Origin: Candidatus Methanophagaceae archaeon GoMg2
Lineage (GTDB): Archaea; Halobacteriota; Syntropharchaeia; Alkanophagales; Methanospirareceae
Assembly: GCA_013180585.1 (NCBI GenBank)
Contig: QBUM01000248.1
Coordinates: forward strand, 1 to 38,058
Length of the DNA stretch: 38,058 nucleotides
Direction: 5' to 3'
The notes beneath the pieces were generated by a model. It saw only the letters and a list, made by a program, of their open reading frames with translations, was not told where the DNA came from and made no database searches. Positions within the stretch are counted from its first letter, which is position 1. Every line of letters starts with the position of its first letter. The position numbers were made by a program, and so were the translations under genes. Below, in pieces: positions 3,162-20,276 of this stretch.

Positions 3162-3205
3162 GTATTATGTGCTCCGACCGCAAGCACTCAAGGAACACCC
3201 ACAGA

Positions 3206-3310
3206 TTTTATCTGCTTGAACTCTATTCCTTTAATCACCCTCTCCTCTAGCACACCAAAACCACAGTCCAAACATGTGGGATTAACCGTTTTGCTAACAT
3301 CTTGTTTTTA
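3206..3310 (-). pseudogene. hisF 5'-end relic A
   Basis: Minus strand reads MLAKRLIP..(shift)..[23 protein letters not shown], aligning by eye to the start of the intact hisF (19575-19678; [30 protein letters not shown]). Contains a frameshift and no continuation. Confidence 0.8.
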
Positions 3311-3374: not shown

Positions 3375-3635
3375 ATGATAATGGGGGCGATGAAAATTGG
3401 GCAAAAAGGACAAGTAGTCATACCAAAGATGTTTCGGAAGGCTATGAACATTGTTCCAGGCACAAAAGTTATTTTTGAGCTCAAAGAAGATGGTATTCTA
3501 ATAAGAAAGCCTACAATTAAAACAGAAGAAGTTTTTGAACGGATTGCAAAGGCAGGGAAAACCGTGGAAGATATTCACCCGCATGAAGCTTATGAGGGTG
3601 AGATAGAGGAAAGATTTAAGAAGATGAAAAGATGA
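3375..3635 (+). CDS. vapB: AbrB/SpoVT-type antitoxin (VapB-like)
   Basis: 86 aa; MKIGQKGQVVIPKMFRKAMNIVPGTKVIFELKEDGILIRKP is a swapped-hairpin AbrB fold signature. Overlaps the downstream PIN gene by ATGA. Confidence 0.85.
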   Translation: MIMGAMKIGQKGQVVIPKMFRKAMNIVPGTKVIFELKEDGILIRKPTIKTEEVFERIAKAGKTVEDIHPHEAYEGEIEERFKKMKR

Positions 3636-4039
3636 GATACCTTGATGCAAACGTATTCATTTATGCAGCCCTATATGAAGGTGAAAAAGGTGATAAGGCC
3701 AGAAAACTGATAAAAAAAGTTAGGGAAGGAGAAGAGGTCGCATTTACTTCTGTTTTGACATTTGATGAATTTTTCTGGATAGTGAAAAAAGAACGTGGTT
3801 TTGATTCCGCTCTTGAGGCGGGAAAAGCTTTTCTGGAAACACCGAACTTGACTTTTCTGGAGGTTGATGGTATGGTACTCAGGCAGGCGTATGAATTTAT
3901 TAAGAAATACCGATTGGACCCCCGAGATGCTATTCATCTATCCTGCGCTTTTGTTCATGGAATATTTACGATAATCTCGGAAGATGGTGATTTTGATACG
4001 GTGAAAGAGGTCGAAAGGATTGGATTGGATGAGGTATGA
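3632..4039 (+). CDS. vapC: PIN-domain ribonuclease toxin (VapC-like)
   Basis: 135 aa; MRYLDANVFIYAAL, TFDEFFWIV, LDPRDAIHLSCA, ISEDGDFD: PIN acidic residues present. ATGA overlap with vapB. Confidence 0.88.
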   Translation: MRYLDANVFIYAALYEGEKGDKARKLIKKVREGEEVAFTSVLTFDEFFWIVKKERGFDSALEAGKAFLETPNLTFLEVDGMVLRQAYEFIKKYRLDPRDAIHLSCAFVHGIFTIISEDGDFDTVKEVERIGLDEV

Positions 4040-4095
4040 GGGACTCAACGGATTGCCTTTGCTTATTTTTTGGATAGGCAAATTGTACCGGCTGA

Positions 4096-4196
4096 TTTTA
4101 TCTGCTTGAATTCTATTCCTTTTACTACTCTACCTCAGGGCACGCCGAAGTCACTGTCCAAACAGGGAATTATCCGTTTCGCTAACATTTTGTTTT
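4096..4196 (-). pseudogene. hisF 5'-end relic B
   Basis: Minus strand reads [30 protein letters not shown]. Very close to intact hisF 5' end at 19575-19678, with an in-frame stop replacing Gly. Confidence 0.88.
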
Positions 4197-4381: not shown

Positions 4382-4819
4382 TCATTCCTTCATATTTGAC
4401 TTAACATATTTGAGGATTATGGCCCTAAGATAGTCACAATTCCCTTTTGACGCTTTAAGCTCGCCTTCTATCGTAGTATCCATCTCGAATTCTAAATGAA
4501 GTCTCGACTTTTCTGTCGCCTTTTTGAAATCATAATCCTGTTTTTTTAGCATCCAGTAAATTATTTGGTTCTTTATTGGTGTGATATCAAAGTCATCCGT
4601 TGTTATAAATTGCTTTGCTTCCATGCAGTATTTCTCAGAAAAAAACCAAAGATGCTCATACACCCGTTCTCCGTCTTCCTTTATGTAGTCGGTTATGAAA
4701 ATACCTGTGATTTCATCGGGGCAAATCTCCTGGTAAAAATCATAGATCCTCTCAACCCTTCCACGAATATCTCCTGTTATGCCTACATCCTCTAAATATT
4801 TTTTAAACTTCTCTTTCAT
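4382..4819 (-). CDS. Small protein of unknown function, partner of the RelA/SpoT-like gene (candidate antitoxin)
   Basis: 145 aa ORF; its start overlaps the upstream gene's stop (4816-4819, ATGA), implying translational coupling. Family not recognised. Confidence 0.65.
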   Translation of the reverse strand: MKEKFKKYLEDVGITGDIRGRVERIYDFYQEICPDEITGIFITDYIKEDGERVYEHLWFFSEKYCMEAKQFITTDDFDITPIKNQIIYWMLKKQDYDFKKATEKSRLHLEFEMDTTIEGELKASKGNCDYLRAIILKYVKSNMKE

Positions 4820-5610
4820 GCTATCTCCTCCGTTTGCTTTTCCCTAATCTCCATAATCATGCCCTCAACATAATGAAGTATATGCCCTAAATAATTTGTA
4901 GCAAATTCATCGCTTTTATAATCCCATTGCCACTTTATATCTTCTTCTCTAATCCCTTTTCTCTTATCTTCATAGTATTTATGCAGCAATCTCCGAATTA
5001 CCTCCTGTAGTTGTGTTGTTATTTGAATCTCAATTGAAATATCAATCTTTTCTGTATCCCAATTAACTCCTGGAATCTCAAATTCTCGTTTCGTATATAC
5101 ATGTGCCGCATAATACCCCTCTTCTCTAGCTTCGAGAAAAACTCTGCACTCCATACTACGTGACTCACAAAGTGATTTTATTTTATCTATCATAAACTCA
5201 ACACCATCTAGATATTTAACTACAAATAGTGTTCTTATAATGTCATTTACCTTAGTACACCAGCTATCAGGAAGTATCCATTCACCTTCCGGCTCATCGG
5301 GCCAACGCTTGTTCTCTAAGATATTTTTCCTAAATGTTTTTAATAAAAATGAATCGAAAGACTTTATGTATATCTTTGGTTTAAACTCCGGTATCAATAG
5401 AGAGTATCCTGTTTTTACTAAATAATCCTCATCATACTTTTTGAGATTCTCGGTTAGTTGAATCCAAAAATCGGATTTTTCGAGATTATGCTTGATTCTA
5501 CCTGTTACGGACTCATAATATGTCTGGGTCCTATCGGAAATCTCAAATTCATGTTTCTCTTTCAACCATTTTTTGTATTCATCAATGTTTTGGGGCTTTT
5601 TAGTATCCAT
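4816..5610 (-). CDS. RelA/SpoT-domain nucleotidyltransferase-like protein (short alarmone-synthetase-like)
   Basis: 264 aa; VTGRIKHNLEKSDFW (G-loop-like RxK), VNDIIRTLFVVKYLDGVEFM (D-I-x-R region), EEGYYAAHVYTK (GYxxxH), ISIEIQITTQLQEVIRRLLHKYYE (EIQI...HK-Y) follow the order of RelA/SpoT synthetase motifs. Confidence 0.75.
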   Translation of the reverse strand: MDTKKPQNIDEYKKWLKEKHEFEISDRTQTYYESVTGRIKHNLEKSDFWIQLTENLKKYDEDYLVKTGYSLLIPEFKPKIYIKSFDSFLLKTFRKNILENKRWPDEPEGEWILPDSWCTKVNDIIRTLFVVKYLDGVEFMIDKIKSLCESRSMECRVFLEAREEGYYAAHVYTKREFEIPGVNWDTEKIDISIEIQITTQLQEVIRRLLHKYYEDKRKGIREEDIKWQWDYKSDEFATNYLGHILHYVEGMIMEIREKQTEEIA

Positions 5611-5840
5611 ATTCTCACCCTTGGACCTTTCCTATGTTGTCTAACGTTGAATAAACGAACCTAACTTCGGTTATCCCTCCAATAAGTGAATTAATGCGAA
5701 GTACTTCGTTTATCCACGACTCGTGACGAACTATCCCGCTTATCATTTTCACATCATTTTATAGTGGCCTTTTTATTTTATCTATATGCGTATTGCTTAC
5801 CTACGTTTCAGAGCATAAAAGCTTTTCGAATCTCAACATT

Positions 5841-6019
5841 CACACACCCTTACAAAATCACTCAAAACATGCAACCCTTTCTTTGACGACTTCTCTGGAT
5901 GAAACGGAACGCCATACACGTTGTCCTTATTCACAACCGCAGCTAACTGCATGCCGTATTCTACCGTTGCTACAACATCCGCTCATATTCCCTCTTCCAG
6001 AATCTATTATTGCAATTAT
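5841..6019 (-). pseudogene. hisH relic C (3' end plus start-codon region, internal deletion)
   Basis: 5841-5972 closely matches the 3' end of intact hisH (19680-19812: cacaccc..acaaaat.actcaaaacatgcaaccctttctttgacgacttctc.ggatgaaac). tctattattgcaattatg at 6002-6019 matches the hisH start region (tctattattgcgatcat, near 20270). The middle is missing. Confidence 0.82.
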
Positions 6020-10412: not shown

Positions 10413-11219
10413 TTACAATTTTAGCCCCTTTTCCCGCAGATAATCCTTTATCTGCCCAACCGTGTACGTCCCGTAATGGAAAATACTCGCTGCCAGGCAT
10501 GCGTCCGCCGCACCATTAACAAACCCCTCGTAAATGTGCTCTAAAGTCCCCACACCACCAGAAGCAATTACGGGAATGTCCACCGCTTCTGCAATTGCTT
10601 TTGTAATGGGTATGTCGTAGCCGTCTGTTGTACCATCTCTATCCTTAGAAGTTAGCAATATCTCCGCAGCACCGAGCGTCTGTACCTCTTTTGCCCACTT
10701 TATCGCATCAATTCCTGTGTACTCACGCCCGCCGTAAATTACGACATCATACCAGGCACTCGTTCCATCCTCTAATTGCACCTGTGTTTTGCCTTCCGCA
10801 TCCTCTAACTTCCGCTTGCAGTCAATTGCAACCACGATACGATTCCCAAAATTCTCGGCTGCTTCTTTTATTAGCTCCGGGTTCTTAACCGCTGCGGTAT
10901 TCGCGCCTATCTTATCAGCGCCAGCATCAAACACCTTTTCAAAATCCGCTATGCTCTTTATCCCGCCACCTACGCATAACGGGATGGATACTTGCTCTGC
11001 TATCTTCTTTACCATTGAGACCATTGTGTCCCTTCTCTCGACGGACGCGGAAATATCGAGAAAAACGAGTTCATCCGCTCCCTGCGCATCGTATCGCTTT
11101 GCGAGTTCGACCGGGTCGCCCGCATACTTGAGTTGCTCAAATTCTATTCCTTTCACTACAACCGCCTTTCCCTGCTCATCGAATGTTGTATCAAGGCAGG
11201 GTATGATTCTTTTTTTCAT
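10413..11219 (-). CDS. hisF: HisF-like imidazole glycerol phosphate synthase cyclase paralogue
   Basis: 268 aa TIM barrel: [57 protein letters not shown]. Diverged from the second HisF in the window. Confidence 0.85.
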
Positions 11220-18776: not shown

Positions 18777-18866
18777 TTATCGAACGTGAACCTCTTCTTC
18801 CGACAACATTATTTCCAAGTTTCTTTGGTTAAGCTTTCTGTACAAAGAATGGTTATCGAACGTGAA
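18777..18866. repeat. 14-bp direct repeats (ttatcgaacgtgaa) flanking a degenerate hairpin-repeat copy at the hisF 3' end
   Basis: ttatcgaacgtgaa at 18777-18790 and 18853-18866 (the latter covers the hisF stop). Between them tttctttggttaagctttctgtacaaagaatggtt resembles the interspersed repeat core. Confidence 0.6.
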
Positions 18867-19683
18867 TACCATTAGCCTTAAGATACTGTTTCACCTCACG
18901 AATTGTGTATTCCTTGTAGTGGAATATAGAAGCGGCAAGTGCTGCGGAAGCGTCCGTGAACTTGAATACGTCCTTTATATGCTCGGGCAGCCCGCAACCT
19001 CCAGATGCTATTACCGGTATATTTACTCGATCGCAAATAGCACTCGTTAATTCCAGATCGAATCCGTCTTTTGTTCCGTCTCGGTCCATACTCGTGAGCA
19101 TTATTTCACCCGCACCTCGTTCCTCTACCTCAATCGCCCATTTTAGCGCGTCCACACCTGTAAACTTCCGACCGCCGTAGAAGGAGCATTCAAACCAGCA
19201 TTTGCCTTCTTTCGTTTCTATTATCTCTCGTGCCGCATCTTCACTTCGCACATACCTCCTCTTCGCATCTATTGCAACCATACAAGCCTGACTACCAAAC
19301 CGTCTCGCAATATCGTTCACCAGTTTGGAGTTCTTTAGTGCTGCTGTGTTCACCGAGACCTTATCTGCGCCCGCGTTGAATGCTCGTCTCGCATCCTCTA
19401 AGCGGTGAATACCGCCACCCACGGTAAGAGGCATGAACACGTTACTCGCGGTTTTTTCTATTACATGCGCCATCGTTTCCCTTCTTTCGTGCGATGCGGT
19501 GATGTCTAGGAAAACAAGCTCGTCTGCGCCTTGCTCATCGTATTCTGCTGCAAGATCCCAGGGAATACCTGCGTATCTTATCTGCTTGAATTCTATTCCT
19601 TTTACTACTCTACCTCCGGGTACGCCAAAATCGCAGTCCAAACAGGGGATTATCCGTTTCGCTAACATTTTATTTATTTGCAC
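18853..19683 (-). CDS. hisF: Imidazole glycerol phosphate synthase subunit HisF
   Basis: [75 protein letters not shown]; overlaps hisH. Start probably at MLAKR (about 19668). Confidence 0.95.
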
Positions 19684-20276
19684 ACCCCCACAAAATTACT
19701 CAAAACATGCAACCCTTTCTTTGACGACTTCTCCGGATGAAACTGAACGCCATATACATTGTCTTTGCTCACAACCGCAGCTAATTCCACCCCGTATTCT
19801 ACCGTTGCTACCGTATTGTCATCATCACTCGGCACGCAATAATAAGAATGCACGAAATAGAAATAATCGGCATCCGTAATCCCATCCAGTAGCTCTGAAT
19901 GCCTTTGCAGATGCAAATTGTTCCAGCCCATATGTGGTACGCGCACATTCGCGGGTAATCGAACCACATCTCCTGGTATCAACCCCCACCCTTTTTCATT
20001 GCCCTCTTCGCTCGCGTCAAACAGAATCTGCATCCCTATGCATATCCAGAGAACGGGCACGTCCGATCCTACAACCTCTATTAACGCTTCAGAAAACGGC
20101 TTTAAGTTCCGTATGCAGTCATCAAATGCACCCACGCCGGGCACAATAACGCCTTCCGCGCTCGCAATATCCGTAATATTATCGACCGTAATCAGCATCG
20201 GGCGATCATACACTCTTTTCAACCCGTTATATATGCTGAACAGATTCCCCATCCCATAGTCTATTATTGCGATCAT
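19674..20276 (-). CDS. hisH: Imidazole glycerol phosphate synthase subunit HisH
   Basis: 200 aa; [57 protein letters not shown]. Confidence 0.94.

Follow-up and report, generated by a model that had tools for sequence, protein, structure and literature searches.

Toxic small alarmone synthetases (toxSASs) such as FaRel2/ATfaRel2, CapRel, PhRel/PhRel2 and FaRel are stand-alone SYNTH-type proteins with a common catalytic set. They are encoded in overlapping two-gene operons, show a patchy horizontal spread, and related synthetases are found with different partners. Most characterized toxSASs modify tRNA (PMC8832971), and CapRel sets a precedent for a RelA/SpoT effector in phage sensing (PMC11782079). 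In FaRel2 the residues K66, S70, K74, R77, D90, Y128, E145 and Q147 hold the ATP phosphate, Mg2+ and the acceptor, and R64 and R95 stack on the donor adenine (PMC11782079). Tas1/Tis1 likewise consists of a divergent toxSYNTH protein plus a small partner (PMC11782079). For the archaea, Atkinson et al. described in 2011 one small alarmone synthetase (SAS), divRel, in Methanosarcina acetivorans (PMC3153485).

A two-gene locus that shares the listed toxSAS features lies in a 38,058 nt stretch of DNA from the methane-oxidising archaeon Candidatus Methanophagaceae archaeon GoMg2, here called the window; its source genome is split into 251 contigs. The first-pass annotation had placed two open reading frames of 264 and 145 aa with an ATGA overlap here, and both are present on the minus strand at these coordinates and lengths, joined by the 4-bp overlap (Table 1).

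Table 1. Features of the two-gene locus and its surroundings in the window
Feature	Position	Strand	Basis
Candidate toxin, divergent small alarmone synthetase-like protein, 264 aa	4816..5610	-	ORF, SYNTH profile homology and invariant catalytic residues
Candidate antitoxin or regulator, partner without known family, 145 aa	4382..4819	-	ORF; adjoins synthetase in 7 loci
Possible operator (weak), 12-bp palindrome CGAAGTACTTCG, upstream of synthetase	5697..5708	.	Perfect in window and L004 only
hisH 3′ remnant, left module junction	5843..5968	-	88.9% identical to window 19681–19806
hisF 5′ remnant, right module junction	4086..4195	-	89.1% identical to window 19566–19675; protein match 4087–4188
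Unoccupied site: hisH end, then full-length hisF	18856..19806	-	Same window
vapBC-like pair, AbrB/MazE-type antitoxin and PIN toxin, beside module	3375..4039	+	Pfam PF04014, PF01850

Comparison with described synthetases

In contrast to the toxSASs, the window protein stays below the Pfam RelA_SpoT cut-off and has lost the equivalents of R64 and R95, none of the antitoxin models in the search recognizes its partner, and the pair is found mainly in archaea. Compared with FaRel2 it also has ~16 aa inserted after the phosphate helix and ahead of the Mg-binding Asp (FaRel2 numbering). Because the two missing donor-site arginines are typical of active RelA/SpoT enzymes, we do not simply file the family as an established toxSAS. 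RelP/RelQ (YjbM, YwaC) have the phosphate-helix motif (KSFESIVNKLMRK in YwaC, KSFDSFLLKTFRK in the window family), the G-loop GY..(S/A).H and EIQI in common with the window family; the first Arg of RxKS as well as the R of QIRT are missing in the window family. To our knowledge, no overlapping partner gene is known for these non-toxic SASs. Unlike in Tas1/Tis1, the partner has no sequence match to any PDB chain, Tis1 included, and no secretion context was seen.

One member of the family, P0013 at locus L024, is encoded in genome G805, which we take to be M. acetivorans C2A. A 177-aa protein of the same organism (P0018, L028) scores above the Pfam cut-off and is probably the divRel SAS; it shares with the window family an archaeal stand-alone synthetase domain, whereas P0013 is encoded in addition to it and is the more divergent of the two. 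By title and abstract, no publication found on toxSASs or small alarmone synthetases in archaea describes the pair, with preprints and most subscription journals outside the scope of this search.

RelA/SpoT homology and active-site residues

Searched as single sequences against Pfam, PADLOC, NCBIfam and PDB, neither the synthetase nor the partner gave a match, in agreement with the partner having been called a protein of unrecognized family, and searches that included PHROGs yielded nothing useful. AlphaFold2 models of both proteins reached a pLDDT of 45 (for the synthetase, the mean of a run with 5 sequences) and were kept out of the fold comparison. Since the window protein falls below the gathering score of PF04607, its RelA/SpoT membership rests on profile–profile comparison: the family profile was compared by hhalign with 15 reference SYNTH domains, all PF04607 matches from archaeal and bacterial genomes. 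The two aligned over 110 columns (Prob 85%, P ~6e-6) with a score of 43.2, well above the maximum of 26.5 obtained with 300 query-column shuffles and the 13.9 of the reversed alignment, and the motifs of the family align to the SYNTH domains in order. The most divergent family member shows a weak Pfam RelA_SpoT match in the right region (E 0.017; 9.9e-4 within its genome). HD, TGS and ACT domains were not matched in the synthetase, which bears out the earlier description of a RelA/SpoT-like protein free of hydrolase and regulatory domains. By its sequence, the 264-aa protein is very probably a divergent RelA/SpoT relative, and the family would represent a RelA/SpoT subgroup overlooked by standard models.

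The ATP-phosphate motif of the window synthetase is K83-x3-S87-x3-K91-x2-R94 (KSFDSFLLKTFR), which corresponds to K66, S70, K74 and R77 of FaRel2 with identical spacing. The annotation had counted GRIK among its synthetase-like motifs; this is not the ATP motif, and its R38 and K40 are not conserved in the family. Furthermore, D123 corresponds to D90, Y166 to Y128, and E194 and Q196 to E145 and Q147; all eight residues are invariant in five divergent members. The K/S/K/R phosphate residues, the Mg2+-binding Asp, the G-loop Tyr and E-x-Q are thus conserved, but the donor site is not, as both arginines are absent: the position of R64 is occupied by Y/H/N/V/L and that of R95 by L/M. In addition, QIRT has T in place of its R in every member. 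A new invariant arginine, R126, lies two residues ahead of the R95 position; it may point to the same face of the strand and stack on the adenine instead. Enzymatic activity appears likely from the conserved residues, and donor choice or activity may differ because the R64/R95 equivalents and the QIRT Arg are lost.

Distribution, pairing and insertion site

Homologues of the synthetase occur in two other Methanophagales (ANME-1) assemblies (L001; L004 with L007), in a bacterium of the Candidatus Neomarinimicrobiota (L002, 75% identity), on a Desulfurellaceae contig (L003, 89% identity over 199 residues, stopping at the contig end) and in the genomes G101, G273, G722, G720 and G805. L003 is possibly a misbinned or chimeric assembly. 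The locus had been announced as an archaeal module: it is found mainly in archaea, but bacterial contigs carry it too. The family has a low prevalence: in the archaeal phylum 5 of the 295 genomes sampled have it, in one class 4 of 238 and in the bacterial phylum 1 of 245. PF04607 matches were found in 14 of the 295 genomes of the archaeal phylum, so that RelA/SpoT proteins are indeed rare there, as the annotation had assumed. The patchy spread together with 75–89% identity between archaeal and bacterial proteins indicates horizontal transfer of the synthetase family. A search of viral contigs, phages and plasmids returned no homologue and thus no hint of a viral link. The candidate defence family PDC-S33 of PADLOC is matched by two further proteins with a RelA/SpoT domain, one from an ANME-1 relative (L029 637–2034) and one from the Neomarinimicrobiota genome (L032 1375–2445).

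A conserved pairing had been predicted, and the neighbourhood survey places the partner directly after the synthetase, in the same gene order, in seven loci (window, L001, L007, L002, L012, L024 and L023), i.e. in three ANME-1 genomes, the Neomarinimicrobiota bacterium, M. acetivorans, G101 and G722. L003 and G720 were kept out of this count because of contig ends or disruption. The overlap measures 4 bp at four loci (window, L001, L002 and L007), 8 bp in M. acetivorans and ~29 bp in G722; in G101 the two genes are separated by 82 bp. Between the window and L002, changes in both genes are mostly at third positions, and a dN/dS of ~0.17 for each gene points to purifying selection. No Pfam or PDB match links the partner at sequence level to the known toxSAS antitoxin types (Panacea, pZFD, Tis1-like, alarmone hydrolase), although it may resemble one of them in fold; a PH-like fold was considered on account of its strand pattern and C-terminal helix.

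G273 (L013) has, in place of the partner, a pentapeptide-repeat protein of 541 aa that overlaps the synthetase by 17 bp; this protein (L013 5637–7262) carries a C-terminal domain of no assigned family. G060 encodes three stand-alone partner paralogues (L056 5153–5650, L057 4901–5455 and L058 4416–4976), one of them beside a transposase gene, with no synthetase detected next to them. As homologues also stand alone, not every member of the partner family is a dedicated antitoxin. A partner match in G006 turned out to be a different type of protein and was rejected.

The annotation had located the module among his relics next to vapBC and suggested mobility. The hisH and hisF remnants and the AbrB/PIN pair are real. 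An unoccupied hisH–hisF site in the same window supports the insertion of a piece the size of the module between his genes. As the flanks are 89% identical to this site, ~1.65 kb was gained or lost at the junction; gain is favoured because the unoccupied order is that of a compact operon. In L015 (CSMAG_829) hisH lies on one side of the module and a full hisF on the other. Convincing terminal inverted repeats were not found around the module. The window holds two truncated hisF copies (3176–3308 and 4086–4195), which flank the vapBC-like pair, and two full-length ones (10413–11219 and 18856–19675). At 523–1430 a cation-diffusion-facilitator-like transporter appears to be broken up among several overlapping ORFs in different frames, which suggests frameshift or assembly errors.

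Upstream of the synthetase, the 12-bp palindrome is not perfect in L001, L002, L003, L012, L013, L023 and L024, and an operator common to the family was rejected. A perfect 14-bp inverted repeat with a 2-bp spacer is located ~35 bp upstream of the bacterial synthetase (L002 5938–5967); it is a possible operator and is absent from the other upstream regions looked at.

Candidate function of the two-gene unit

We think it fairly probable that the pair is a mobile toxSAS-like module for toxin–antitoxin action or defence, whose partner belongs to a family not described before. The evidence comprises the homology, the invariant residues, the conserved operon, its presence on archaeal and bacterial contigs, the replacement of the partner in one lineage and the insertion context. 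The 264-aa protein would act as a stand-alone RelA/SpoT-fold pyrophosphotransferase. Its pyrophosphate donor would be a nucleotide, most likely ATP, and the accepting 3′ hydroxyl would belong to a purine nucleotide or to the CCA end of tRNA. We put tRNA modification first for the sole reason that most characterized toxSASs act in this way (PMC8832971). The co-translated 145-aa partner would bind the synthetase and hold it inactive, and release of the synthetase, for example on viral infection, would lead to growth arrest. Enzymatic activity, toxicity, neutralization and trigger are what we infer from these sequences.

Three synthetase genes are broken beside intact partners: in L001 codon 200 is changed from CAA to TAA, G722 has a TAA at codon 17, and in G035 an insertion near codon 135 separates halves that lie on different contigs. 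This would fit, weakly, a toxin that is lost while its antitoxin is kept. The synthetase makes up ~65% of the coding length, and all three disruptions would fall into it by chance in ~27% of cases; the number is not significant because the synthetase is the longer gene. In assembled genomes sequencing error possibly lies behind such disruptions.

The repeated inactivation argues against a non-toxic signalling pair, in which the synthetase would produce a purine alarmone, e.g. (pp)pGpp, for regulated stress signalling under the control of the partner as sensor or activator. Such a pair would agree with the conserved catalytic core, with partner-domain homologues that exist alone and with G273, where a gene ~0.4 kb upstream of the synthetase (L013 8585–9265) codes for a protein that resembles HD_4 alarmone hydrolases and has an HDxxED motif. 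G273 has two HD_4 hydrolases, and G101 has one, elsewhere in the genome. However, no HD_4 hydrolase was detected in the window genome (G000), G037, G035, G805 and G722, so an alarmone would be left there without a known hydrolase. The patchy, horizontally spread occurrence in few members of each lineage and the replaced partner in G273 also speak against signalling, which we regard as unlikely.

Even less likely is a defence system in which the synthetase is switched on by a virus sensor; the partner, or in G273 the pentapeptide-repeat protein, would have this role instead of being the antitoxin of a free toxin. Defence-type neighbours, namely a type IIG restriction gene in L002 and an HEC-01A-like ATPase in L013, would suit this arrangement as well as the favoured one, as would the swapped partner in G273 and phage sensing by CapRel (PMC11782079). 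Against it stand the lack of homologues in the phages, plasmids and viral contigs searched and the broken synthetases with kept partners, which fit an antitoxin at least as well. A catalytically altered relative that uses another donor nucleotide or is a pyrophosphotransferase no longer is very improbable: the loss of both adenine-stacking arginines and the QIRT Arg in every member and the new invariant R126 point that way, but the Mg2+ ligand D, E-x-Q, the G-loop Tyr and the phosphate set are invariant across archaea and bacteria, and R126 could take over stacking.

Returning to the toxSAS-like module, the two-gene unit is probably a toxin–antitoxin or virus-defence switch of a kind seldom seen in archaea. 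More tentatively, the family may be an undescribed RelA/SpoT subgroup centred on methane-cycling archaea, with a rebuilt donor site, that acts together with a new family of antitoxins as a toxin–antitoxin system or antiviral effector. The two-gene unit of this methane-oxidising archaeon is also present in methanogens and at least one bacterium. RelA/SpoT proteins are seldom found in archaea, and alarmone biology is not settled there; if our reading is true, the toxSAS strategy of tRNA or adenosine pyrophosphorylation would be brought to this domain, along with a RelA/SpoT subgroup missed by standard models and a partner family that is new. The pair would then be a first toxSAS-type system to test in archaea, with M. 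acetivorans, which is cultured and has established genetics, as a possible test host.
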